From Protonemura montana (Eukaryota; Arthropoda; Insecta; Plecoptera; Nemouridae): 64,000 bases of DNA. Position numbers and translations under genes: made by a program. Below are positions 7,201 through 60,500 of the stretch, piece by piece; position 1 is the first letter of the stretch, and every line of letters starts with the position of its first letter. The notes beneath the pieces were generated by a model. That model had not been told where the DNA came from and did no database searches. It was given only the letters and a program-made list of their open reading frames with translations. The stretch is from assembly GCA_947568835.1 (NCBI GenBank), contig OX387604.1, forward strand, positions 8,711,860 through 8,775,859. The letters are read 5' to 3'.

Positions 7201-8569
7201 GGCATGGATAACTTATTTTCCCCAATCGTAGGAAAAAAAATACTTTTACACAATACAGTAAGTAGTTTAGTAGTCACTGTTCACTAGGCTACGGTAGCTG
7301 ACGGAAGTCACCACGGGGCCATTGCGGGGCTCAAAGAAGGCGCATTAAATGTGACAATAACAAGAAAGTGAATAAACTTCCTAAAATCAGCAGCTTTTTC
7401 GTGTGTACTAGTTCGAGTTTTCCAGTACGCAGAGATAGTTTGGCCGTGACAAAAGAACTTCTTATAAAACTGGAAATTTGCCTGACGTGCACTACGAGAA
7501 AATGCAGTGAGAGTATATTAGATTATACTTATATAATGCAAGGTTAATTAATAATTACTAATAATCCCAGTTTTAGTTATTTTCAAGCAAATTCGACGCA
7601 AGGTGTTTTGTTTCATTTCCTCTCCTATAAAGTGCAGTATGCGGTCCCTTCGATCTTAAATGTATCATACTTTCTCAATCTGTCATCACTTTGAGGTGAA
7701 TATCTTTTAGCTGTCTCAGAATGCGTATGAGACTGAAATATTTGCGTTCTCGTCATGTCGAGATAGCCTAAATTTCCCGACACGAAAAAATAAGGAATAA
7801 TCCAACTGCTCGCAAACATGACCCGGACGTCGTTGGTGCCCGTGGAAAACATTTCCTTGTTGACAAGGGCCCATGTCGTACTTCGGGGCCTTTTCCGACA
7901 TTTACTGAGTTAAAACAAAGCTTTTCTGCTAGCTTCTATGAAACAAAATACAAAGCGGAGCTTGGCTAGTCACCTGCACTCGATGCCGCATATTGTCAAC
8001 CGTTTTGGCTATTTGCTGACAGAAAATAAGACAAGAAGCTATTTATATAAAGGGAAGCTACCCAGGTAAATGTAATTCGTGACTGGAAACATCTATTCGT
8101 CACTTTTCAACTTGGATTGCTTTCGGTGATCACGATTAATTTCTAAATCGCAAAGAATTGTTTATTTCTGGTAACCACAATTTTTAGTATCATTTTCATC
8201 ACTCGCAATTGAACGTAAAAATGTGTGCGATACAGAAACATTCGAACTGGTAATTTTGATGCCCCCGGGCCCAGGTATACCTAGTTTATATTTTTTTAAA
8301 TTTATTGATTTGTGAAAACAGCTTAGGAACTTATGCTACTGCAGAGCAGGATAGTTTAACTTTAACATGTTGGAATAAATTTGTCAGCAATATGTGGCCA
8401 AATTCGATTTTATTGATTGCTAAATTGCAAAAGGGATGTATATCTACAGAAAAAGTAATTTAAATGTTTCGTAGTGATAAGTCAACTAAAATTTTAGTAG
8501 TGGCATTATTGAAATATAATCAGGTTAATTTTCCCCAAGCTGTTTGTACTCTATCAATTTTTTGTCTCT
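4275..8569. other. Intergenic region, ASAP to YRxxY gene
   Basis: No coding region could be supported. The stretch begins with the ASAP 3' UTR and is AT-rich. At about 6886-8280 there is GC-rich transposon-like sequence, listed separately. Open frames here are short and lack matching splice sites. Confidence 0.5.
6886..8280. mobile_element. Possible degenerate DNA-transposon or composite repeat
   Basis: The left side reads CAGTGGCGTAACTACCGG followed by a GCGGGGCGACCGC stretch and CCCCCGGGCCCAG, a motif combination common at ends of non-autonomous invertebrate elements. GCCCCCGGGCCCAG recurs in the same orientation at about 8262-8275. The interior has another GC-rich patch at about 7305-7345. 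No transposase frame and no clear terminal inverted repeat were found, so the borders are guesses. Confidence 0.3.
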
Positions 8570-11500
8570 TCATTTCTGCATATTGCCATCCAGGTTTCTA
8601 GATTTATGCTGTCCATGGTAGTTGTGTGCAAGATTTAATCCTCCCAATTTGCCAATGACGTTTTGATATTCGGAAAATCCCGTAGTCGCTGTCTTACTAA
8701 ATGGAAAATTACCTGGAACAAAAATATTATGAATAAATTGGTGAATAAAGAGTGAAATTAATTGCTGCAAGAGAACATGGTAATCGGAATTTTGTTGAAG
8801 TTTTAAGAAGGCACTAAGAAAAATGAAACTAGAAAGTTTTCATACCAGCCGGTGGTTCGATCGGTTGACTTGGGGGTAGAATGATTGGATTTGGTCCAAA
8901 AACGGGGCCTCGGTAAGAGTCCCGGTAAGTGGAGCTCGGCTCTGGCCATCCGTCTGGAAGGTTTACGTTCACCCGGCCGTTTGGCATGTGTTGCAGTTGG
9001 AAAGTTTCCGCTGAATAATCAATGAAAGGTAAATTAGTAACAATAACTGCCAAAAAGTAATTTGAGTAGAGCACCAAGAGGCTGAATATTGATTGTGGTG
9101 GAGAAGAAAAGAGCAAGGAAATGCAACTTATTAGAAAAAAAATAAGAGTTGCATGGTGCACTTGTCAAATTTCTTTTAGAAAACCCAGGAATGTAGATGT
9201 TTTGGCCTGTTACCTTTGTCATTGCTAGCATAGATCACATTCGCCACATGGTCACATAAAAGTGTTAAAATTAAACAATCCTGAAAGAAAACGCTGAACT
9301 GCGAAATGAAAATACAATTTTAGTAGCACAGCTAGAAGCTAACCAAACCAAAAATAAAGTCTGAAATTTATCATATTTTCGAAATGTATTAAATCTTTAA
9401 TATTAATTATATCTGTGGTATCTGTGACTTCAACACTTAAGTTCACTTTTCACTTGCGACGGCACCGACACAGAAAATATGCTGAACATGTCTTGACGAT
9501 AGCTAGCCCAAAACCAATTTGTGATATGGATTTGGCAAATCAAACTCTTGCAGTTCAAACCACAATCAGTAGTCTACATGCAACCCAAACATAAGTTGCG
9601 GAGGATCTCGGAGGAGAGAGGCATATATCCCAAAAAGTTAAAGAGGGTTGACACTTAAGGATACTTAGTATTCAAACTTATATTCAAGCTATTAATATAA
9701 TTGCCAAACCTCATGACCTCCAGCTAAAATTAATTCCTAGATCTCAGGCAGAGTTGCAAAACGTCAGCAAGGCCATAAATGCTCTGCACGAGAAACTGCG
9801 TACTCTCCTGGTTTTTCTCGTCCATGGCTCGATGCAAAAGCGTTTGGTAGCAGCCTTCGGGACCTTAGTCCCAGCAATCCTTGTCAACTTGTTTTGGTGC
9901 TTCTGTTTTTGGTGTTTCAAAACAATGACAAAGACCAAAGGCCCAAAACGTTTAAAATCTCGGGTTTTCTACAAATTTCTTGACAAGTGCACCACTCGAC
10001 ACAAAAAAAGTAGATGAGTTAGTACAAAAAATTTCATAAACCTACCAAGGGTTTTACCAGGTCCACAAATTTTCTGTGAATATTCTGTTCGATAACGCCC
10101 CAAATAAATTTGCTCGATAACACTTATGTCAATTGGCGCATCAGTAAGGCGGTTTTTCATCGCTGGGTATTTTTCAATGGCCTGTTAAAGGAGATCGAGT
10201 AATGGTTTTTGATTGTATATAAATTATTAATCCTGTGAGAGTTAATTTTATAAGCGCTCAAGTTTGTTAATTCCACTTACCCTTTTAACTGCAGCATCAT
10301 GTTGCTCGAATTTGGCAAAACTGGGCAAGTTTTGTTTTTGAGATTCTGGTAGAAGGCAATGTAGGAATGGTCCAGCAGCAGGGTCGGGGTAATCTGGTTC
10401 AAATACAGCTGGGGAAATCCTGAAATATTTCAATTAATGGGTCTTTGATGCACTCTTTAAAATAGGCCTCATGCCATGATGCCTCATGTTTTGGTCGCTA
10501 GGGCCATGAAAAGAGGGTAGGAGCCTCGAAGATGACAAACGGGACGAAGAGGGTCCAGCGTCGCATGATCGTTTCACGGTTACATCAAACTCTTCTTCAG
10601 AAGAGTCGTCTGATGTATCCCAGGTGGCCAAGGCCAACTCAGAATGTGTGGGAATCTCTTCGTTCATCCAGACAATAATGCTTCTTGGCAAGATTTGCCG
10701 ATTAAGAGGCTGGGCAACCCACAGTTTTGAATCAGGAACTGGCTCTTCCACCACCGCTTTAAAATCTCGTGGAGGAAGGACATCTTCCCAGATGTCTTCA
10801 GTGTACTGCTTATTCTCTGAGCTGCTGTTACAACTAGGATAAGTTTTGAGAATGGAGGACATCTTGGGTGCATCAAAAGATTCGTCATCAGATTCGGTAG
10901 ACAGAAACGAATCTTGGCTCGATTTGTCAATGATCTCGATTTTGCCAAACTGAATGCATCGACTATCTGAATGAAAGGCACTTTCATAAAAGCTTGCATC
11001 TAGCTTCCTGTATCCTGTAAAAAGATCTTCCTCGGATGGTCGTGCTCTGGATGGCTGGCGACGAGGCTTCCACTTCTCAATCTTTACCACTTTCTTGAAC
11101 GTACGCTTTTTCCTAAAGTCGTTAGCAATTTCCGAAGAGGTACGGTGTACTTTATAGAAACCCCTCAAGTCCGTTGATGGCACCTCTACCCACTGGATAG
11201 CATTTCTCAGAGAGAAGTTTAATTTTCCACGGTAATTCGGTTTCAAGGGGGTTTCCAAAGGTTCTGGAATTTTTGGAAACTCGAAGTTTTCTTTACGAGC
11301 AATTCCTTCGGCAACCATCGAATCTTTTTCTGGATATCCAGGAAGGGGGGTGTTTTGAATGCAATACTGCATGGCTGCTCGCCTGTCAATATGTTCGAAG
11401 GGGCCCATCCGCCCCATTACCAGCTCTGTTAGAGACTTGCAGGCTTCATTTGCAAATCTGGTACATCCGATCTCATTGTGTTTCATGTACGATTCGATGA

Positions 11501-11998
11501 GCTTGTGTCTTAGTTTTGCTGGCAAATTTACTTTCTTCTCTTGAGGAAGAGATTCTAGAGTCTCTGTAGCAACGCAATCCTCCGTCTCATTTTCAGCGTA
11601 CTCCAGCATGGTTGATTTCTTAAGTAAAATTGAATAGACAGAGGCAAATCACTATTTTTCTTGACCTCTTGGTGTCAGTGAGCTCGTTGTGAGCTTGATA
11701 TATGTTTAAAGAGCCCTTTAATCAAGAGAAGGCACGAAAAAATTAAGTCGTTAACAATTTGATATGATGTAGTTGACAATATTTCGAATTCGTTGACCAG
11801 TTTAGCTGAAAGTTTATAGTCATTATATAACTGTCTTCTTTAATCTTCTATAATCAAGATGCGATCAAAATTCGTTTAGTATTCTGATTTTGACTAAGTA
11901 TAGGCCTAAGTAAGGTTTCCCAATTCTTACCGTTCTCCCTGTTTTCCCTTGTAATCTCGACGATAAACTGACTTTCCATACAAATCCGTGGAAAACAT
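8570..11998 (-). CDS. Five-exon protein with YRxxY motifs, possibly axonemal
   Basis: Five exons join with consistent phases on the minus strand: 11998-11931 (ATG, phase 2 exit), 10419-10281 (phase 0), 10181-10046 (phase 1), 9010-8846 (phase 1) and 8712-8570 (stop), totalling 651 nt or 216 residues. Every border is GT..AG. An in-frame TAG lies upstream of the ATG. The protein is small, rich in Tyr, Pro and Arg, with no signal peptide or membrane segment. Three spaced motifs of form YRxxY occur (SVYRRDY, GRYRTEY, STYRDSY). Such repeated Tyr/Arg motifs and irregular Pro-rich sequence are common in microtubule inner proteins of cilia and sperm tails, so a ciliary role is a guess from composition. 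I do not recognise the exact family. Intron 1 (1511 nt) contains a whole ORF at 10434-11609. Confidence 0.72.
9111..9228 (+). repeat. Dispersed repeat, copy 1 of 2
   Basis: Matches about 19209-19326 in the same orientation. Shared blocks include AATGCAACTTA, GCATGGTG.ACTTGTC, TTTTAGAA-like and CCAGGAAT sequence, GTTTTGGC.TGTT and CTTTGTCA. It lies in intron 3 of the YRxxY gene. The family is unknown. Confidence 0.65.
10434..11609 (-). CDS. Uncharacterised 391-residue protein, intronless, nested in an intron
   Basis: A single open frame of 391 codons runs from ATG at 11609 to TAA at 10436-10434. It lies wholly inside intron 1 of the YRxxY gene, on the same strand, and its stop is only 13 nt before that intron's acceptor AG. 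The product is hydrophilic, with no signal peptide or membrane helix. A basic patch (KKRTFKKVVKIEKWKPRR) sits near the middle. Acidic serine clusters such as DTSDDSSEEEFD resemble casein kinase 2 sites, and the C-terminus is Ser- and basic-rich. I do not recognise a family. Length and balanced composition make chance unlikely. It may be a retrogene, a separate gene with its own promoter in the intron, or the product of an intron-retaining transcript. Confidence 0.75.
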   Translation of the reverse strand: MLEYAENETEDCVATETLESLPQEKKVNLPAKLRHKLIESYMKHNEIGCTRFANEACKSLTELVMGRMGPFEHIDRRAAMQYCIQNTPLPGYPEKDSMVAEGIARKENFEFPKIPEPLETPLKPNYRGKLNFSLRNAIQWVEVPSTDLRGFYKVHRTSSEIANDFRKKRTFKKVVKIEKWKPRRQPSRARPSEEDLFTGYRKLDASFYESAFHSDSRCIQFGKIEIIDKSSQDSFLSTESDDESFDAPKMSSILKTYPSCNSSSENKQYTEDIWEDVLPPRDFKAVVEEPVPDSKLWVAQPLNRQILPRSIIVWMNEEIPTHSELALATWDTSDDSSEEEFDVTVKRSCDAGPSSSRLSSSRLLPSFHGPSDQNMRHHGMRPILKSASKTH

Positions 11999-12312
11999 CG
12001 CTTTAGCAGGATCAACCTATTCCAAGAATTGAGTTTTTATCACTCCTTTTACAATTAATTTATCAAAAATATAAAAATGACGTTCCTGACAGGCCGCCTA
12101 TAAAACAAAATGTCTGCAGAGGTTTCCTTCTCCCCTAAGGAGGTAGCTTGACACTTCCCTCTTCACAGCTTGCTAGAGTACGGTTCGCGAAACTGATCAC
12201 TGACGTAAACTTTCATACTTTCAAGGCTGTGCAGTTTACCTACAAGCAGCAGGTCGTTTGGTATAGTGATAGAAGTGGATTTCTCTGAAAAGAAAAAGGT
12301 GTTAAAGTAGAA
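11999..12312. promoter_or_regulatory. Head-to-head intergenic region, possible bidirectional promoter
   Basis: Only 314 bp separate the ATG of the YRxxY gene (minus, 11998) from the ATG of the Cys-rich gene (plus, 12313). Both UTRs and promoters must lie here unless an upstream non-coding exon exists. No convincing TATA box was seen. Regulatory function is inferred from geometry only. Confidence 0.4.
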
Positions 12313-12993
12313 ATGGCTTCCGAACTTGATATGGACGCAATGTACGCCTGTGCGTGCTGCTCGGTGCACTCAGCGAGCCTTGCCAACGAAGAGGGTTGCA
12401 GTGTTGTGGTAATAGCTCTAAGATGTCTGTCCGATGACTATGGTGACTGGCCCTTTGGTTTCACTGTGGAAGAGTTGAGTGAGTGGATTAAAGACAATAG
12501 TGTTGATTTCCAAGGGGGAAATATTCACCATCTGATCGAGAAAGATCTAAAGGGCATCCAACGCCATGGAGGAGTTGTCAAGCTCCATGATAGAAAAGTA
12601 GTGACGTGGGCTAGTGCTGACTACTATTCGAAGCACAAGGAATTTAATCCGCTAACACCCGGCGAACCTACGCAGTGTACGTGTAAACTGTGCATCGTTG
12701 CAGCTAGACGCCAATGTGTGTGTCTGAGACACGAAGATCACCTTGGGGTTGCAGGAATCCCAATTGAAAATGCGGGTGAGCCAATTCTCAACTGCCCCAA
12801 TATCGGGAGATTCGAAAACGAAAAATTGTTGGCAGTCGAGGTCTCGTCTGATTGTCTAGATCTAGACTGGAAAGGCCAACGAGTTCCCCCACTTCCAGAG
12901 GTCCAGGCTCCAGACCATGATCTGAAACAAGCACAAGATCCAGGACCATCTCAAACAAGACGCCGCACTAGACGCTCTAGACGCCGCAATTAA
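12313..12993 (+). CDS. Uncharacterised intronless Cys-rich protein with Arg-rich tail
   Basis: The frame has an ATG at 12313, an in-frame TGA upstream and a TAA stop at 12991-12993, giving 226 residues with no intron. The N-terminal part has a Cys cluster (YACACCSVHS). Residues about 50-110 are a mixed helix/strand stretch with FTVEELSEWIKD and VVKLHDRKVVTW, which could be a small winged-helix-like fold, although that is a guess. A second cluster, CTCKLC then CVCLRHEDH, could bind zinc. The last 11 residues, RRRTRRSRRRN, are almost all basic and could be a nuclear localisation or nucleic-acid-binding tail. I do not recognise the family. The frame has even codon use and no simple repeat, so it is likely a real gene. 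It lies head-to-head with the YRxxY gene. Confidence 0.7.
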   Translation: MASELDMDAMYACACCSVHSASLANEEGCSVVVIALRCLSDDYGDWPFGFTVEELSEWIKDNSVDFQGGNIHHLIEKDLKGIQRHGGVVKLHDRKVVTWASADYYSKHKEFNPLTPGEPTQCTCKLCIVAARRQCVCLRHEDHLGVAGIPIENAGEPILNCPNIGRFENEKLLAVEVSSDCLDLDWKGQRVPPLPEVQAPDHDLKQAQDPGPSQTRRRTRRSRRRN

Positions 12994-24686: not shown

Positions 24687-26933
24687 TTACACCGAAACTG
24701 TGCTAACTTCTCTAGTACATGATCCTTCTATATCCCTGGTTTTCATGATCGGAGTAGTTGGGCTGTTCAAATGTTCATTATTGTATAGAGGCTTGTAAAT
24801 ATTAAGTCGATGCCCGCGCCGTTTGGCAACTGTTTCTCGATGCAGCAACATCTGAGATCTGCATAGAATAATCAAAACCACTAATGCAACTATCACGACA
24901 AATGTTGTGACTGCAGCTACAAGCATGACGATAATCTGAACCGATGACCCCCATAAGTGTTGCTTTGCTGGTGTTTCTCCATACTGATTATGAGCTTCAT
25001 TTTTTTTACCGACTTGTTCATTCTTATCTTCTTCTTCACCATCTTCTTCTTCCTCTTCTTCTCCTTCTCTATCACGGCCATTTTCTTCTTTGTCTTTATA
25101 TTCTTTATCAAAATGTTCAAAAAAGTGGCTTCTTTTGTCATCCTCAGAGGACTCGTTACCATTGTTAATTGACAGTCGAGTGCTTTTGACAGTTTGTGCA
25201 TTCGGTAAGCAACCCAACGCACGAAGAAAGTCTGGCCAGGACATATTATCAGAGGTCGCCTCGCTTGCATGCCGAGTACTAAAAGACCCAACTCGGGCCT
25301 CAGACAGATAGTTGGCCAGATCTTTTAAGTCGGAATCACAAACCAATGGATTTGAATTTAAGTTCAACATGTCCAGGTTACTGAACACTTCCAAGTCCTG
25401 TCGTGTTATTTTTTCCAAATTATTTCCAGATAAATTTATTGTATTTACTTTTGGCAGCGAGAGTATTTCATTCCGCTTATTTTGCCATATGTGATCCATC
25501 CCACAATCACTTAGGTCCAAAGATGTCAGGAACTGTAAGTTGTCAAAAAAATGTGTTTGTAAATGTTTGACTTTGTTACCAGCTAGAGACAATTTTTGTA
25601 TTCGAGACCTTGCAGGAAACTGAATGTCATTTGTATCGGTTATTCTGTTAAAAGCTAGATTCACGTGTTTCACATTGGGTTGCAGAATACTGTCGCCTCT
25701 GAAGGTTGTCAGGAAGTTTCGGCTTATATCTAGCTGGGAAAGATTTTTTAAATTTTTCAATAAACCAGACGACAATTGTCCGATCCCGCAATTGGCAACG
25801 TTGAGTTTGAAAAATTCATCAAAATTTCCTTTGAATCCATCTTCTGGTAAAAATTTTATGTTAGGGTTGTTTTTCAGAGATAATGTTTCGAGTTGGCTGT
25901 TTTTGACAAATAAACTACCATCCAATTGTGAATCCAAAAAATTGTCTGATAGATCTAGATAGGCCAGTTTTGGCATTTTAGCAAATGCGCTAACTGTGAT
26001 TTCCGCAATCACATTATGGCTCAAGTTCAGATTAGTAGTCCCCAGGACTCCATTAAAACTATTCTCAGATATTTGAGTAAATTTACAAAAACTCAAATCT
26101 AAATAAGTCACTCCAGGAAGGAGAATGTCCTCCATTGTAACCAGAGGATTATTTTTTAGTGTAAGTTGAGCTAGTGCTTGGTTGTACATGAAAAGGTCTC
26201 CATTCAGGCTATGGATGTTGTTGTTTGATAGATCAAGATCTTCAAGAGAAGTCAAGTTTCTGAAGGTATCTGAATCAATAACATCAAGGTTGTTTGAAGC
26301 CAAGCTGAGATAGGCCAACTGTGTTAATTTCCTGAAGAAAGTGTTTGTAAGGGTATTTAGCTGGCACAATGACAGGTCCAACTCTTGCAATGAAGGGATG
26401 CTGATAGAATTATTCATCATTCCTTCAACTGCTAATGGATTACCGCTCAAAGAAAGTTGTCTCATGTTCTTATTAGAGGAAAAAGTGTCCGGATGAATTT
26501 GCTCAACAGAGTTATTTGTCAAATTAACTAGAACAAGATTGTGAAGTTCTTCAAAGGCATTTTTGTCAATTGATGCGATTTTGATGTCGACTATAGTAAT
26601 AGACTGAACGCTTTTCAAATGAAGATGAATGAAAACTCTGTCATAAAGTGTTATAGCTTCTTTTGTATTCTTGGAATCATTCAATAATTTGAAGTCACTG
26701 TATTTATCTTTGAAGTGCTGAGATGCTGTTAACTGTACACACTTTGCAATCAGCCCATCATTGGTTTTTCGCACGCATGTACAAAATTCTGGACAATCAG
26801 ATTTTGGCTCTTCTAACATCCAATTTTCGTGTTGTTCTGGCATATTATTCAGCGGTTTCTGATTACTTGCTCCGACCAACGAAGATGCCAGTGAAATGAA
26901 GATCAATGCTATAGCCAGCCTGCGTAACTCCAT
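24687..26933 (-). CDS. LRR single-pass transmembrane protein 1
   Basis: The start is ATG at 26933. The frame is open further upstream, but a TTACTTGCAG acceptor at about 26955 marks a 5'-UTR intron, and the 26933 ATG is followed directly by a good signal peptide (ELRRLAIALIFISLASSLVGA). The protein has 748 residues in one coding exon and stops with TAA at 24689-24687. After the signal peptide comes an LRR N-terminal cap (CPEFCTC, Cys 47/51/53), then many LxxLxLxxN repeats and a partial C-terminal cap (NPLVCDSDLKDL ... LGCLPN). A highly acidic juxtamembrane stretch (REGEEEEEEDGEEEDKNE), a membrane helix at about 665-690 and a 58-residue cytoplasmic tail follow. This is the layout of extracellular-LRR adhesion or receptor proteins. 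The ligand is unknown. It resembles LRR protein 2 (39350) in design. Confidence 0.88.
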   Translation of the reverse strand: MELRRLAIALIFISLASSLVGASNQKPLNNMPEQHENWMLEEPKSDCPEFCTCVRKTNDGLIAKCVQLTASQHFKDKYSDFKLLNDSKNTKEAITLYDRVFIHLHLKSVQSITIVDIKIASIDKNAFEELHNLVLVNLTNNSVEQIHPDTFSSNKNMRQLSLSGNPLAVEGMMNNSISIPSLQELDLSLCQLNTLTNTFFRKLTQLAYLSLASNNLDVIDSDTFRNLTSLEDLDLSNNNIHSLNGDLFMYNQALAQLTLKNNPLVTMEDILLPGVTYLDLSFCKFTQISENSFNGVLGTTNLNLSHNVIAEITVSAFAKMPKLAYLDLSDNFLDSQLDGSLFVKNSQLETLSLKNNPNIKFLPEDGFKGNFDEFFKLNVANCGIGQLSSGLLKNLKNLSQLDISRNFLTTFRGDSILQPNVKHVNLAFNRITDTNDIQFPARSRIQKLSLAGNKVKHLQTHFFDNLQFLTSLDLSDCGMDHIWQNKRNEILSLPKVNTINLSGNNLEKITRQDLEVFSNLDMLNLNSNPLVCDSDLKDLANYLSEARVGSFSTRHASEATSDNMSWPDFLRALGCLPNAQTVKSTRLSINNGNESSEDDKRSHFFEHFDKEYKDKEENGRDREGEEEEEEDGEEEDKNEQVGKKNEAHNQYGETPAKQHLWGSSVQIIVMLVAAVTTFVVIVALVVLIILCRSQMLLHRETVAKRRGHRLNIYKPLYNNEHLNSPTTPIMKTRDIEGSCTREVSTVSV

Positions 26934-28027
26934 GTTTGCTGCGACGCCAGATCTGCAAGTAACAAACAGCATGTAAGTAAACAATTTTGTTTTATTCAAC
27001 TTTCTAAAGTACACAAAACGAAATGTATGATTAGGCATTCTCAAAAGTGGTTACATTAGACCTGCCTATGCTGCACAGCTCACCCGATTTTGAAATGGGA
27101 CACAATCAGAGGAAATGCACTTCTCTTACAATACCCCGCCAGCTTTTATACTTTAAAGAACATTGACAGGTTGTGAATTTCTAAAAGGACCCTGATTAAG
27201 CAACAGAAAAAAATCTTTCCTTGCCAATTTATACACTAAATATGTACAAGTTGCAATACTGTCAAGCAAATAAGTGAATTATGCTATGTTTAATTTGACT
27301 GGCAATCCTCCGTTCTAGTTAAAAAGTTAACTAGTTAACTCCGTTCTAGTTAACTCAGGTACCTGTTAGTCATGGAGATATCTAAAAAAGTATTCAATGA
27401 TAAATTTCTCGAAGCCATGGAGGGCCAGAATTATCTGCTTCCTTTTAAGTAGGCAATTATGCTAATTCCATTACTTCCCTTACCGTAAGTAAGGAGGGAT
27501 AAGGAGGAACTGTATTATTTTCTTTTTAGTAATTCAGTAAGTTTATTTTGCATTTTCCACCCCAATTTTCTCAAATCTCATTCAGAATAGTTGATAATAG
27601 CATCGCAGATTGAGGTGCAAGTAAGTCAGATTTTGTCGGTGCTAGTCTAATCGACACTGCTGGTCGAAACATAAATTGCTCAAGGTGATAAAATACATTT
27701 TCTTTCTGAAAATCTGCAAAACTGCACAGCGTTGCTTTGCTTTGCTTTTGTCAAGTCATACCTCTGACTGTCACATGTCACACCTGACCAAAATGACAAT
27801 AAACTTGTTGAAATTTCAAAAAAAATTTCAATTTTAGGAGTGTTTGCGACTCACAATACCTCGCGTCAGCTTTATAATCGTGGGTTGGACCTAAAATGGG
27901 GCTCTGTTGGGACACATTTTTTTACTTCTCGCATTTGGCAGGTTTCCTTCTACTATTTCCAGAATGATCGACGGTATTATTACATTCAGGCTTTTGGGCT
28001 GCTCTTTTAATGCGGTCACGTGATGAT

Positions 28028-32764: not shown

Positions 32765-34570
32765 ATGGCGGCATGGTTGCCTTGGCTCGTCGTCCTGATG
32801 TTGACGACCCACACTGCACAAAGCGCAGCCTCGATTCAGCAAAATATCCCGGCAAGTGGGCCTTCTAGAACGTTCGTGGGATTTGACGACATCGTCACAC
32901 GCGTTGCCTTCAAGGAACATGCGAAAAAAGTGTTCAAGCGAGAAATTGCTGACGACTTCACTCTCGACGACGAAAGCAACTCTCAGAATGTCTCGTCTGA
33001 AGCTTCATCGTTGCCTGTCAATGATACGAATGATGATTTGAAGCTGAATTCTATCGAAGTTTCTGACAGAGTTTCTACTGAAAATGCTTCCTCGGATGAG
33101 GACCTAACAGAAGAGACCAAAGACACGCCCCTCGGCAACGAACTCGAGGACGCTGAAAACACCAACGCAGGTAATGCAAATCCCGAGCAATCGACAGCAG
33201 CTGACGAGGAGACGGAGATGAAGGCGGAAGAAACGGTCCCAAAAGTGGTGACAAGTATCGTGGAAGATGACACAGAATTCTTGGAAGACATTTCAGCTGA
33301 AAATATAGCGGTGGACACGAGGGGCGAAGCAAGAACCGATATTCTGGGAAAGCTAATGGCCGTTGACGAAGGTTCAGGAGACAATGAGACTGATGGTGAG
33401 GTTGAAGAAATCGATTCGTCTGGCGAAACTACCCCCGTGTCATCTGATAATTCTGACCAAATTATTACAACTGAAACAGAAACAGCAGAAACAACTGATA
33501 AGGCTCCCGAAGGTGACGATACCATAAGAGATGAAGGAACAGATATCATTAGCGTCGATATTGACAGCGAAGAGACCACAGACTCTCCCGATGAGACTCC
33601 GATCCCAGACCCGGTCCCCGAAAAGGAGGACTCGACAACCAAAGATTTTCAGGTAGATGAGCTGATCAGGGTGAGCCCGGCGGCCTCGGCTATCCTTACG
33701 GACTCTGAGACAACGGAATCAGTAGCAGAGAATGTCGCCGAAGGATCTGGCGAAGGGGCCGGGGTAGGAGGAATCACTGATCAACATAGCAGCGAGGAGA
33801 GCGTAGAAAACGAGGATAAAACGGAACCGCCTCAAGTTCCCGCCGGTGGAGAAGATCCTTCAACTGTGCAGCCGTCTCAAACAGAAGCCGTTCCTCAAGA
33901 AGCCGATGACTCCGGAGATACTGTGTTGAGAAAGGCGGTCTTGCCCACCGGCGATGGCGAGGTTCAAAAAGAAGGTATTAACGAGTTGGGAATAGGGTTT
34001 GAAACGACGCAAGCTGAAGGGGATTCCTCTCCTGAAAATTCTTCAACTAGCTCGTATATCGTGCTGGGAGCAATCATGATGACGATTGTTGTCTTGGTGG
34101 CGTACACGGTAGTCAAAAGTCGTCGACAGAAGAGGACCAGACGGTCAGGCAACATAACGAAGGTGGAGGAGGAAGATCCAGGACGAGAGATGAAAGAAGT
34201 TGACAAGCTGCTGGCTCCAAGACCGAACGTGTTTTCTGCTCAGAATGGCGGTACAAGGGAAGATGACAGAACTCCGCTAAAATCATTCAAGGAAGAGGCC
34301 CGTCCAACTAAAAACGGATTCATGCCAGAGAACGGGGGTGGCGGGCTTACAGACGTAATCGTGGAAAATGTTCCGAGGTTGAGTACTGATCCGAAAACGA
34401 ATGGAAAAGCGCCGAATGATAATCAGAGTGAGGACGATCAGGATTCTTGGGTAAAAGGCACGGGGGAGGCGCTGGAATGTACCAAGATCAAGATGTACAT
34501 TGACGAAGATTCGATTCCGAAGACGCCGATTGTGATTGTCAAAAGAGGGTCAACGACTAATGAAGTTTAA
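32765..34570 (+). CDS. Acidic single-pass membrane protein, uncharacterised
   Basis: A single coding exon of 601 codons runs from ATG at 32765 to TAA at 34568-34570. A splice acceptor (GATACTTTCAG) ends just 18 nt before the ATG, so a 5'-UTR intron is likely. The N-terminus is a signal peptide (AWLPWLVVLMLTTHTAQSAA). Residues about 60-425 are low-complexity and dominated by Glu, Asp, Ser and Thr, with many SxE/TxE and some SG pairs, suiting a heavily glycosylated or extended ectodomain. A membrane helix (YIVLGAIMMTIVVLVAYTVV) at about 431-450 is followed by a basic stop-transfer patch (KSRRQKRTRR) and a tail of about 140 residues. No conserved globular domain was recognised. A mucin-like or proteoglycan-core role is possible but inferred from composition only. 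The opposite strand carries a long Ser-rich open frame that is a shadow of the acidic codons. Confidence 0.85.
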   Translation: MAAWLPWLVVLMLTTHTAQSAASIQQNIPASGPSRTFVGFDDIVTRVAFKEHAKKVFKREIADDFTLDDESNSQNVSSEASSLPVNDTNDDLKLNSIEVSDRVSTENASSDEDLTEETKDTPLGNELEDAENTNAGNANPEQSTAADEETEMKAEETVPKVVTSIVEDDTEFLEDISAENIAVDTRGEARTDILGKLMAVDEGSGDNETDGEVEEIDSSGETTPVSSDNSDQIITTETETAETTDKAPEGDDTIRDEGTDIISVDIDSEETTDSPDETPIPDPVPEKEDSTTKDFQVDELIRVSPAASAILTDSETTESVAENVAEGSGEGAGVGGITDQHSSEESVENEDKTEPPQVPAGGEDPSTVQPSQTEAVPQEADDSGDTVLRKAVLPTGDGEVQKEGINELGIGFETTQAEGDSSPENSSTSSYIVLGAIMMTIVVLVAYTVVKSRRQKRTRRSGNITKVEEEDPGREMKEVDKLLAPRPNVFSAQNGGTREDDRTPLKSFKEEARPTKNGFMPENGGGGLTDVIVENVPRLSTDPKTNGKAPNDNQSEDDQDSWVKGTGEALECTKIKMYIDEDSIPKTPIVIVKRGSTTNEV

Positions 34571-35612: not shown

Positions 35613-38600
35613 TCAATCATTGTTCGAGTTAGAATCGCCGCGAATATCTTCCCTGGACCATACTTCAATGCGCAGTTGATGCATAAGCTTCGCTTCATCA
35701 TGACGCTCGTTTCCTGATCCTCCGTCGCTAGCTGGCCTCACTGCTCCAGTGACAGGATTTATCGGCAAATCTTCTTCATCTTCATCGGTCGCCACCTCGG
35801 AGTAGATTGAAATCTCGTCGTAAGCCTCTTCACTCAAATGAGTCTCGTCTTCCGCTTGGACCAGGGCAGAGTTTTCTATTTCAGCTGCATCGTTACCTCC
35901 AGCACCTCGCATTCTCGTAGAAGCTTTTGAAATGTACAAAACTGTGTTAACATCTGTATGACTCTGCACTTTTAAAAAAGTCAGGGTTTACAGAGTGCAA
36001 GGGATCGTACAGATGAAATAAAAGTTCCTCCTAAACCACCCCACTACCCCTGTATCCAGTGGCGTCAACAGAAAGGAACAAGAGTGTACGGCGCCTCGGG
36101 CGCCCATATTTTTATTTTTATGTCGAAAAAAATTGCTTACGCAACGAGATTGGTCTCAGAGCGCTGAGTACCGCTCAGCGGTACGCTCAGATGGTAAAAT
36201 ATTCAAAATTATATTTATTCCAAAATGCGTGTGGGCGATCATTTCACCGAAAATAAGGTACTGGCATATAGATTATTTTTTGCTTTTTACTATTTTCTAA
36301 GTTTACTATAATTTAAACGGGTTTTTACTAAATTTACTGGGAACTAAGAACCTATTTCAGATAAAATTTTCCAGAAATGCATAAATTTTCCCAAAAGAAA
36401 ACTTTAACCTTACCTAACCTAACCTAACTTAACCAGCATGTGTTTTCACCTTCTCCACACAATCGTTTTCCACCAGAATGTGAAGGTGTGGGGTTATTTT
36501 GGTATCTACCCTTGCGTACACTGAAATCAGGTATGTTTTCTTGTAATAGTCTTGATATCTCTTAGATGGAGAGGGATATATATTCAAACGAGCATCCCCT
36601 ATCATCATTACGTAAATAAATCATTCCGTTTTAACTCATGATTGGTAAATAGCTCCAAAGAGCTTCATTTACATTTTTTCATTTTCCACGTCCTAACTTT
36701 TTTTGTTGGTATAATATAATAACAAACGCTGCAGCGTCTTCCTTCACTTGGTTTTAACTGACAACCGATGAAAAAAGTTTTTCTAACAATACAAATTTGC
36801 AGAAATTTAGAACTCGTAAAATATTCCGTTTTTTAGTTATTAGGTCTGTAATGTGGTTTCACGTGGCCTTAGTATTTGCATATTTACTGATTTTAAACGA
36901 ACTTTTGCAGTTTTATCGCTAGATATGTACAATACAACAATTGTTTATGTTTTTTTTGTTTTTTTTTACAGAAATCATCTACAACAAAATGATTTCAGAG
37001 AATTTTTACCCAGTCATACATGCTGCCTTCCATTACATACCAGCGACATACTTTTTTAACGCTACCCCACACCCCCAACCCCATTACGCTAATCCAAAAA
37101 CGCGACACAAAAAGCTGTTAGTAAAGCTATGCACGAGTTGACATGGAACTAGTTCTTTGTTCCGGGTTCCTGGTTCATACCAGGATCATTAGCCGAGTGC
37201 CGCGCGGACCAGAGCTCATCCCTGGAGGAGGAGTCCTCCCTTCTGGGCATGAGAACTGCCTCCTCGTAGGTTGGAGGATGTCGCTCGACTCGCTCCAGTA
37301 AACTCGCTTCTTCCTGTCGGCGGTGTTCCTCGTTGATTCGCTCTACACTCTCTCTGTAGAGGCGGACCACTCTGAAACAAAAATCATGCGGGGTTCACAA
37401 GGTTAGGCAAGCTTAAAGCAGCTGAGTCGATGGAAACTTCGATAATGGTATTTAAATCGAGTTCATTGAGATGAAATATCACCTTTCGTGATTTTCAGCA
37501 ACAGTCCTTCTGCGAGCTTCTAGGCGCCCTCTCAGGACCTTCTCCCGTTTCTTCATTCTTTCTCTGATGGATACGATGACCACTAGCGTGAAGCTGATTG
37601 TCATTACTGTGATTAGGATGTATACGCCGTAGCGGTCAAAAAATGTTGATTTATTAACCAGGAGTCGAAACTCTAGGCTGCATGCATCTTCCCAACGTTT
37701 GCCCTCAACATTTTTGGGAGACGTGCATTTCAATTCATTTCTTTCACTGAGAGTTAACTTTAGAGGTGGGTATAGTGCCCCTGTCAAATACTCCCAGAGC
37801 TCCTTGAAATCTGGGTCTTTACAGTCACAGATCCATGGGTTGTTACTCAACAGAATGGACTGAAGGTTCTTATTTGAGATAAACATGTACTGTTTAGGAG
37901 TTGTAAGTCTGTTACCAATTATATTTAGCGTTTCTATATTTGGTAGTTTTGAAAAAGTTTCGTTAGTGATCGAGGTCAAGCGGTTGTTGCCCAAATTTAA
38001 CTCTTTCAGTGAGTTTGACTCGATGTTATATGGTATGTGCTCGATGCCGTTGTGGGACAGATCAAGCGCTTGGAGTCTGGGAGTGTTAGTGAAACTTATA
38101 CTATCAAACATTTGAATCTGGCATTGGCTTAAATCTAGCTTGGTTAATTTTGAAAGAGTCAGGTTAACTGGCAGCGAGAATATTGGATTTTTAGAAAGAT
38201 TGAGAATCTCTAGCCCAAAATTTGTTATGAACATGTCCCACGTTAGTCTAGATATTTGGTTCTCTGCCAAAGATAAATTCCGAATATTTGTCAACCCCAA
38301 AAAACTATCCTGCTCGATTCGCTTTATAGTATTCGAGGACAAATCCAGGTGCTCCAACTTGCTATTTTTTATGAAATCGTTCTTTCTTAATTCTTCTATT
38401 TTATTTCCTTTCAAATTGGCTTCCTTCAAATTCTCCAACGCCCCGAGACCTGGTTTGGTCAGTTGACAAGAGCGAGCTTCAAAGGTGTGCAGGCTGTTAG
38501 ATACAAGAGTATGGTACAAACTAAAACCTTGGTTACCCGTCACTTTTAGCGTTTGAAGGCGAGGTAGCCCTTGCAGTTGGTCTCTATTCATTAGATCCAT

Positions 38601-39350
38601 CTTTCCGAAGCTAACGTCCAAGTAGTTGAGACTGTTCGACTGCAAATCCTTCACCCATTGTAATGGGTTTCTTGCCATATGCAAATGGGTCAAACTCGGC
38701 AACGCATCCAATACCGTATTTTCCAACGTTTTTATATGATTCGAGGTCAAGTCTAACACTTTTAACGATTGACTTGCAATAGAATTATACTTTTCATCAA
38801 ATATTGCTATCTTATTGTTCGACAAAATTAGTGTTTGGAGGTTGTAATTAGTCTCAAACAAAGTGTGTGCACTTATACCCGAAAGACTAGTTATTTCATT
38901 GAAAGAAAGATCTAACATTTTCAAAGCGCGAAGTTCAAAGAATACGTCCTGGTTCAATATTGAGATTAGATTTCCCGATGCATTTAGCGTAGTCAACATA
39001 CGATAATGTGACAATTTTGGAATCGTAAAAATCTCATTGTCTGCAATGCTCAGAAACTCCACCTGAAACCCAGAGACCATCCTTATAAAATCATGTACAT
39101 TGTTGCAACAAAGGTATTCAGAATTACTGAAATTTCATTCGCAATTTGTAGCTTGGAGAAGATTGTAGATATCTACACTTACGTCATTATTCAAATCTTC
39201 AGGAAACAATTGCAACTCCTTGTTTTCGCAAAAGACTTGGCCGCTTGGTGGGCAGTCACAAAGATTCGGACACGGGCGAACCGGTGGCACGATAGAAGTT
39301 AGGAAAACTGTGCAAGCTATCACATGCAAATTACTTTTTGTAACAAACAT
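35613..39350 (-). CDS. LRR single-pass transmembrane protein 2, two possible C-termini
   Basis: Exons on the minus strand: 39350-39183 (ATG, signal peptide, LRR N-terminal cap CPNLCDC), 39062-37483 (LRRs, C-terminal cap NPWICDC, membrane helix YGVYILITVMTISFTLVVIV, start of tail) and 37371-37181. Joins are phase 0, then phase 2. The third exon has a GTATGA donor in phase 1 that joins in phase to a last exon at 35941-35613 (alternatively starting at 35923), giving 755 residues. If that donor is not used the frame stops at TAG 37151-37149, giving 656 residues. The tail holds a PPTY motif (ERHPPTYEEAV) that fits WW-domain ligands. The distal exon adds acidic sequence with YDEISIYSEV, two tyrosine motifs seven residues apart resembling an immune-type tyrosine signalling pair. 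A 5'-UTR intron ends at 39386. Function is probably cell adhesion or signalling. Confidence 0.82.
35942..37180. other. Last intron of LRR protein 2 (if the distal exon is used)
   Basis: About 1.24 kb, AT-rich. It contains CCAGTGGCGTCAACAG and a CGCCTCGGGCGCC stretch at about 36057-36110, which recalls the GTGGCGTAAC element end near 6893. No additional exon is supported. Confidence 0.4.
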
Positions 39351-57543: not shown

Positions 57544-60500
57544 CTAATCCCGGCTGACGCAGTATGGCATAGGACCGATCTGGGGAACAGATTGGGGAGA
57601 ATCGAACAATGACATTTTCAGTCTCTTGCATTTTGCTCGGCGATTCTTGAACCAAAACTGCACGTTTTTTGGTTCCAGCCTCGGAAACTTTTGTCTGTAC
57701 GCCATTCTGTTCAATTCGTCGGTGTACTTCAGTATAAGGTTGTGAGATGGATGAGTATTTAGTGAGAACCACTGTTCGAGACGTGGCACTTCTGAGACAG
57801 GATCGATGAATGTACGATTACGCTTGCGACGTTCGTCCAGCGCGGACAGATTGAGACCCTGCGACGACGACGTCGAGCTGTTTGGCTGGACATTGTGGCC
57901 CAATCCTGGGATGTAGTGCGACATGTACATGATGCTGTGACTGAACATGGAGTTGGGTACCAATGGGAAACCTGCCACGGGCCCGGGGCCCGCACCGGAC
58001 CCAGTCGGTGGGCGGGCCACAATCAAATCGGTGGGACTCGGGGTACGGAACGAGCCGTGCTCTTCTTTGCGATCATCCATATCATCCTCATCTTCCTCCT
58101 CTTCTTCTTCTTCAGATAAGTCATCCATATCCTTATGGTTGTTATTGTTGTTGTTATTGTTGTTATTGTTGTTGACTATGGAGAGGTTATCTGGAGGCTC
58201 CTGTTTGATTCCGCTGAGCTGAACAAGAAAGAAACTTCAGTCAGCAAAATGGTGGGTCCTCGCATGTTTTGGAAGAATTTCACGCTGATGCTGTAAAAGG
58301 CGGGAGGAACTTACGGGTGGCGTGCGAGGATGTGGAGACTTGTTAGTCGTCAAGCTCAGTGGAGCCTCCTCGATAAGACTGCTGGCCATATCGTCGTCGT
58401 CTTCACCTTCGGAATTCACTCCGACCTCCGTGTCAGAGTTCTCACTGGCCTGGGGACGAGAGAACAAACATGAGATCCAAACAATGGTGAAACACACTTG
58501 TTTTCTGTATTTAAAATACTCAAAAAATCATTGGTGCATTAGCGACATACCTGGTCTTGCATGCTGAACATTTGGTGTGCATTAGTGGAGTTTGGGCTGA
58601 GAAGAGCTCCCCTGGCTCCAAGGGGAGGGCTGTGACTAGCAGAGCTGTAACCATTCAGCCCCAAGTGGCCCATGCCCATGAGCCCCCCTGCAGGCGTCTG
58701 TCGGAGCTCGGCGCGCTTTTGGGCTGCTCGTGCGTTCTTGAACCAGTAGACCACGTTGTTCACGTCGAGAGGTTTTCTTCCACGACGTGATTCCAGACCG
58801 TTTAACTCTTTTACGTACTGCTGTATCTGAAACACAAATATTAGGGATTGGTTAGGCATCTGGGTTTTCTGATTCTTACTTCTCCAAAATAACCAATGGC
58901 AGCCAATAAAATATGCCAATAGCCAATGAAGATAATTCCTAAGCGGTGGCTTTCTCTGAATGGTCGGGGTGTTATAAAATGTATCTACCATTGAATTACC
59001 ATGACCATATTAATCCTGGTCTGAAGCCACTCACATTCTAGACATGTTTCTGTCGTTTATAATTGGAAGTTACTTGGACTGTCAAACAAGGAATTTTCTC
59101 TCCAATAGTATCATTTTCTGGGTGAATCGATTTTACAATCTCGCCGAGACGGATAATAATGACCAGAACTGAAATGTGAGGGTAGGTAACCTACCTGTTG
59201 TCGACTTGGGTGCTGATTTTCGCTGAACCATCGCTGAAGTTTCGGGAGTTCCAGTTCAGGATCAAAGGAAGTCCTCATCCGTGTCTTCTGCGTCGGGTAC
59301 TGACTCGAGACGGTCTGGAAATCAAACTTCACGCGATTAGTCCCGGACGAAATTTACTCGCGAAGGGTTACATTCATGCTGGAGGTCTGGGACACAAAAA
59401 AACTTTCATAACTTTCTAATATTCAATGATTAAAACCAATTATTTGTATTCACGATCTAATATTCATGTCCTTTAATCATTTTTAACCCATAAAATCAGA
59501 TCCCAACATTTTATATTTGCAACGTGAACATGAATTCTATTCTTATTATTTTTTACTTAAAATGCGTAGACTTGTTTTTTTCAAAATCAGCGAGATTTTT
59601 TCGTCCATTCAATTTTTAAAAGCGTGGTGCAGTGCGTGTTCAAACATTATTCCCACCTAGCTCTATCTAAGGAGTCCTAAAAGCTCTCTTGCTCACTAAG
59701 AAACTATTGAAAACACGTATAACTGCAGCTAAAAAAAAAATCGACATTAGAACTACAAGTTGAATGGCCGACCACACAGTTGTCTCACAATACAAACTCA
59801 TAAGAACAATGGAAAAATATCGGCTATATTAACTGGTATTGGTACTTTTGGGGTTAGCCGAGATCACCTGAACATTTCCAACTCATTTGAACTCAATACT
59901 CTTGAGTGGGTTACCTGCAGTGCTGGGTGTACGGCATCGCCCATCGAGGGCGACCTGTCCTGCAGGAGTTTATTGGGCGAGTGGTTACCAGTGAGCCCCC
60001 CAGGCCCCCCAGGACTGTACACTCCCCTGGAAGCCGGCGAATGAAGGATGCCACCGTGGCGATGTGCTGCCTGCTGGCTGCTGAGTTGCATTGACCACCA
60101 GTGCTCAAACTTCCTGCGGCACTCCTCTGTCGGCTCGGGCAACGACGAAGGACTCCCTGGCGACACAGGAGGACTCCTGCACAGATGCGATAGAGTTACC
60201 TGGAACACAAGCAAGAGACGTGTGGGATGGGCAATTCTCTGGATTTCTGGACTAGACCTCAGTTACCAGGACCAGGGGTAAGATGATATGAATTCCGACA
60301 CAGATGGTCGGACAGGGACAGGGTTACCTGGCTTATGCAAGAGAAGAGGATTTTAATAAACACGTGTAAGCAGAGGGAAGTTACTGCACAAGTGGCCGAA
60401 AGCAAAAGCTAGCGACATTTATTTTGGTTTGGTGAAGTGGTTCAGAGCCGTGGGTGAATGTTGTGGTGAGTATCGATTTTGCTCTGTTGTGATTGACTTG

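Follow-up and report, generated by a model that had tools for sequence, protein, structure and literature searches.

The window, i.e., the whole stretch of 64,000 nucleotides from Protonemura montana that was analyzed, contains on its minus strand a predicted gene of five exons, hereafter the host, whose first intron is largely filled by a long open reading frame (ORF) of the same strand, hereafter the inner ORF. The features of this gene pair are as follows:

11931..11998, minus strand: host exon 1, coding part, 68 nt, ending in phase 2 (in-frame join, donor score)
10420..11930, minus strand: host intron 1, GT-AG, 1511 nt, containing the inner ORF (splice sites and joined frame)
10434..11609, minus strand: inner intronless ORF, 391 codons (ORF listing, shuffles, codon score; without family match)
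10281..10419, minus strand: host exon 2 (in-frame join)
10046..10181, minus strand: host exon 3 (in-frame join)
8846..9010, minus strand: host exon 4 (in-frame join)
8570..8712, minus strand: host exon 5 with the stop codon (in-frame join)

The five host exons join into one frame of 651 nt, which encodes 216 amino acids and a stop codon. All four introns are of the GT-AG type, all four modeled acceptors end in CAG, and intron 1 is in phase 2. A preliminary description of this DNA had placed a complete, intronless ORF of 391 codons within intron 1 of a gene on the same strand, with the exons on either side (ending at 11931 and beginning at 10419) joining in frame in phase 2; the sequence bears out both the coordinates and frame of the ORF and the junction of the exons. 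The predicted host protein is small (24 kDa) and basic, with YRxxY-like motifs. Its codon score is less clear, being 0.012 in its own frame versus 0.034 in the next.

The coding signal of the inner ORF and the assignment of host exon 1

In the ORF listing of the minus strand between 8000 and 13000, the inner ORF runs uninterrupted from ATG to TAA (11609-10434) and occupies 78% of the 1,511-nt intron. Its ATG is preceded by an in-frame TGA 42 nt away, the base at position -3 of the AUG is A, and the predicted protein has a mass of 45 kDa. When the bases of intron 1 were shuffled, none of 5,000 sequences contained an ATG ORF of this length, the longest averaging 56 codons with a maximum of 228; dinucleotide shuffling likewise gave none in 2,000 (mean 61, maximum 167). 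Codon use was scored after training on five other ORFs of the window. The inner frame scores 0.075, the best of the six frames, with the remaining five between -0.136 and -0.017. A score at least as high is reached by 37 of the 2,514 chunk-frames of the window, a set that includes real genes and the inner ORF itself. In overlapping windows of 80 codons, the inner frame is the best of three in seven of eight cases, the exception being codons 118-197; codons 354-391 fall outside these windows. An ORF that arose by chance is ruled out by the shuffles together with the codon score; by these measures of the sequence, the inner frame appears to be protein-coding.

The claim that this frame is nested depends on exon 1 belonging to the host. 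Its donor, ACG/GTAAGA, scores 9.1 bits, versus 5.9 bits for the next best GT in 10420-12050, with generic weights. On the same generic weights, the remaining host donors score 10.6, 6.6 and 6.4 bits, and donors within the inner ORF 5.9 bits at most. Exon 1 is also the sole ATG-bearing exon in 10420-12600 to combine a phase 2 end with a donor scoring 6 bits or higher. The exon 1 peptide SVYRRDYKG aligns with STYRDSYRG of exon 4; this alignment was equalled by 164 of 5,000 shuffled exon 1 peptides, and it lends modest support to the placement of exon 1 in the host.

If exon 1 were instead outside the host, the two genes would not be nested, and the inner ORF would either lie upstream as a neighboring gene or serve as an alternative first coding exon. 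Chance can indeed produce a short frame from an ATG to a donor, and the motif match of exon 1 is the modest one just given. However, the exon 1 donor is the best-scoring in its region, the exon is the sole fitting one there, and the donors within the inner ORF score low. In addition, the inner and host proteins show no significant similarity (BLASTP, E = 0.25), in keeping with the earlier proposal that one locus could encode two unrelated proteins. We therefore consider the non-nested arrangement to be quite improbable. In the gene model that we favor, the inner coding sequence lies entirely within the host intron, and the inner ORF is very probably a real gene nested there.

Relatives and origin of the two proteins

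Searches for relatives of either protein were negative within the collections covered. In the genome of 258 Mb (34 contigs), no sequence other than the inner ORF itself matched the inner protein (E ≤ 0.001), the matches of the host protein (E ≤ 10) were confined to its five exons, and the DNA of 10281-12300 found only itself at E ≤ 1; this search scores just the best candidates of a first look, and a very diverged copy could escape it. In Pfam, neither protein rose above a family cut-off, the sole host match (E = 0.23) lying below it. Among solved structures there was no credible relative of the inner protein, and the best PDB match of the host protein, an amidase-related protein at E = 0.075, was not credible either. 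The motif style of the host protein is reminiscent of sperm and ciliary microtubule inner proteins; no sequence relative of this kind was found among the solved structures.

That the inner ORF came from a virus or a bacterium was considered and rejected, within the reach of the following searches. Six short peptide patterns of the inner protein, whose reach is limited to close relatives, gave no match in viral contigs, and in prokaryote genome contigs they gave 10 pattern matches and no confirmed relative; PHROGs likewise held no relative. The relatives of the inner protein were thus sought in Pfam, solved structures, and viral and prokaryote collections, and the lack of a match in these does not make it an orphan gene. 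A transposon or other repeat was also rejected: the DNA of 10281-12300 is unique in the genome, and the repeats within 10281-12313 are just 14-27 nt long and imperfect. Nothing in the window reached the Rfam gathering scores.

The preliminary description had also raised the possibility that the inner ORF is a retrogene, i.e., a processed copy of an intron-bearing gene that was inserted in the host intron. This is a claim about origin, compatible with other readings of the locus, and the absence of introns from the coding frame is what it would predict. The window has three further ORFs above 500 codons that are likewise uninterrupted, however, so that intronlessness is not unusual here. A genome search at E ≤ 0.001 revealed no intron-containing parent; intron 1 contains no run of seven or more A; and the flanks at 11610-11960 and 10281-10433 have no word of nine or more bases in common, although both an A-tract and a target-site duplication would decay with age. 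Because the genome holds no second copy of either gene at the thresholds used, the retrogene proposal finds no support, and we regard it as very unlikely. An old retrogene whose parent was lost or has diverged would still be compatible with these results.

Possible start and end of the inner RNA

Upstream of the inner ATG, the following candidate elements were noted:

11813..11829, minus strand: TATATAA (11829) and TATAAA (11818), candidate TATA boxes for an internal promoter (consensus match only)

The distances from these TATA-like words to the inner ATG are 220 and 209 nt. At a fitting distance behind them there is one initiator-like word, with four of six positions matching.

On an unspliced host RNA, AUGs at 11998, 11979 and 11823, which open frames of 23, 41 and 26 codons, precede the inner AUG; the first two are in exon 1, and a fourth, at 12216, would be added if the host RNA starts that far upstream. 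These AUGs bear on the earlier proposal of a switch between spliced and unspliced transcripts, in which a single host transcript would be translated into the host protein after splicing, or into the inner protein if it retains intron 1. Such intron retention would fit with the common strand of the two genes and with an inner stop that adjoins the acceptor. It is nonetheless a poor route to the inner protein, because a scanning ribosome must pass the preceding AUGs, and we judge the switch to have little likelihood. By contrast, an internal start in the first 321 nt of the intron would skip the first two AUGs, and also the third if it lies past 11823. An internal promoter is thus the likelier explanation of the two.

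Another route to the inner AUG would be a shared first exon, as in VAChT/ChAT. Here the host promoter would serve both genes, and the inner mRNA would gain an upstream noncoding exon through an acceptor located directly ahead of the inner ATG. A candidate for this acceptor exists, namely the acceptor-like sequence TCTGTCTATTCAATTTTACTTAAG, in which 14 of 20 positions are pyrimidines; it ends 9 nt before the inner ATG, with 11618 as the first exon base. A precedent is found in ticks, where ChAT and VAChT have exon 1 in common, as described in passages of PMC7524744. The site at 11618 ends in AAG, however, versus CAG in the modeled host acceptors. Moreover, joining the modeled exon 1 (donor 11931) to 11618 would place the host AUG first, reading out of frame for 43 codons, so that this route would require another, noncoding donor. 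A direct fusion of exon 1 with the inner frame was likewise tried and rejected, since none of five acceptors gave an open joined frame; two had the right phase, and there a stop followed after 23 or 25 codons. We consider a shared first exon to be unlikely, if somewhat less so than intron retention. It is compatible with an internal promoter, and both could be used.

At the other end of the inner ORF, three elements are found in close proximity. Only 14 nt (TTGAAATATTTCAG) separate the stop from exon 2, the stop being 12 nt ahead of the acceptor AG. The closeness of stop and acceptor noted in the preliminary description is therefore correct, while the distance of 13 nt given there is to be revised to 12; as also stated there, almost no room is left for a 3′ UTR within the intron. 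The candidate signals on this side are:

10433..10437, minus strand: TTAAT, branch-point candidate over the inner TAA stop (YTNAY match, putative role)
8161..8414, minus strand: three AATAAA (8414, 8306 and 8166) past the host stop, the first ones downstream of the inner stop (motif match)

Within the final 61 nt of intron 1, no word besides TTAAT matches YTNAY. The candidate branch A of TTAAT, at 10434, is 15 nt from exon 2, which is close for a branch point, and the role is putative.

Between the inner stop and the host stop (10433 to 8570) there is no AATAAA, and three are found in 8569-8000. Because 1.3 would be expected by chance in the former interval, this absence is only suggestive of a tail shared with the host, in line with the earlier prediction that the inner mRNA runs into the host exons. 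ATTAAA at 9401 and TATAAA at 10252 could instead end the inner RNA within host introns. It is plausible, if just short of probable, that the inner gene shares its tail with the host and uses the host 3′ end. Rather unlikely is the more specific possibility that the inner gene lacks a separate 3′ end: the inner mRNA would be an alternative-first-exon form with host exons 2-5 as tail, and the TAA of the inner ORF would double as the branch point of intron 1. If the host exons were the tail and the TAA the branch point, the end of the inner protein and the splicing of the host would be unable to evolve apart.

On balance, the most likely reading of the locus is an ordinary pair of nested genes on one strand whose 3′ junction is tight, and probably one in which the inner gene has an internal start. 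The likelihoods given here are rough, and the explanations are not mutually exclusive. According to the proposed mechanism, the host would produce its small five-exon protein, and the inner ORF an unrelated protein of 45 kDa. The inner gene would be transcribed from a separate start site among the first 321 nt of intron 1, such that the inner AUG would be the first AUG on this RNA. The inner RNA would then run on into host exon 2, and would either take an untranslated tail from the last exons and the poly(A) sites of the host or end at a weaker signal in a host intron. When full-length host transcripts are spliced, the inner gene would be removed along with intron 1.

Known nested genes and the surrounding window

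Among same-strand intronic genes, the clearest match is VAChT in intron 1 of ChAT. In passages of PMC7524744 and PMC3053374, VAChT is described as a single-exon ORF in the first ChAT intron; in both cases a single exon carrying the entire inner ORF is enclosed by the first intron of another, same-strand gene. For VAChT/ChAT the common strand follows from the splicing of both mRNAs from one exon 1 in ticks. The two pairs differ in that VAChT and ChAT serve one pathway and, in ticks, have exon 1 in common, whereas the proteins described here have no known family and no demonstrated functional link or shared exon. Nor is the present pair VAChT and ChAT themselves, given that the inner protein has no Pfam family and the host match is below cut-off. 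The Su(var)3-9/eIF-2gamma locus of insects is alike in that very different proteins arise from one locus, possibly after a gene moved into an intron (PMC4528330). There, however, the pair has promoter, start codon and 80 N-terminal residues in common, whereas exon 1 and the five acceptors tried here give no open joined frame.

The arrangement itself is familiar from Drosophila, where, in the relevant passage of PMC4528330, the FlyBase authors hold that a gene nested in a same-strand intron merits no special comment; no difference from such genes is evident here. Nested genes make up ~6% of D. melanogaster genes, according to a passage of PMC3786989. In the counts excerpted from PMC8467205, simple nested pairs are on opposite strands in 220 of 296 human and 193 of 248 mouse cases, so that same-strand nesting is a minority at least in mammals; inner genes of Drosophila are there said to be often testis-specific. 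For two mosquitoes, a passage of PMC3689595 places ~87% of embedded genes within host introns, with overlapping pairs predominantly in opposite orientation. PMC4528330 further counts 14 Drosophila genes with common 3′ UTRs and 159 dicistronic pairs, which the present pair would join if the inner mRNA uses the host 3′ exons, a sharing that we infer here. Same-strand intronic nesting is thus already known in animals, and the unusual part is the tightness of the inner end against the next host exon. The locus adds a well-defined case, with the inner stop, the host acceptor and a possible branch point all contained in a stretch of 20 nt. Should the inner gene share its tail with the host, the pair would offer a compact system in which to study how overlapping same-strand genes avoid or use transcriptional interference.

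Elsewhere in the window, a 226-codon ORF on the plus strand (12313-12993), Cys-rich by eye, begins 315 nt from the host ATG and runs in the opposite direction. The two may form a head-to-head pair, perhaps with a common promoter. This ORF has no Pfam family, and no solved relative better than E = 0.2. Two long uninterrupted ORFs on the minus strand (24687-27038 and 37479-39080) encode leucine-rich-repeat proteins that by eye have a hydrophobic segment close to the C-terminus, and such long frames without interruption are therefore not rare in the window. On the plus strand, an uninterrupted ORF of 601 codons (32765-34570) looks acidic, begins like a signal sequence and contains one membrane-like segment, all as judged by eye, and shows no Pfam family above cut-off. 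The Pfam search also identified an OATP exon in the window. Lastly, the minus strand contains a homeobox ORF at 57544-58128 (Homeodomain, E = 5.9e-08) and a homeobox-like ORF at 58539-58991 (Homeodomain, E = 0.038, below cut-off), which we take to resemble insect dve.
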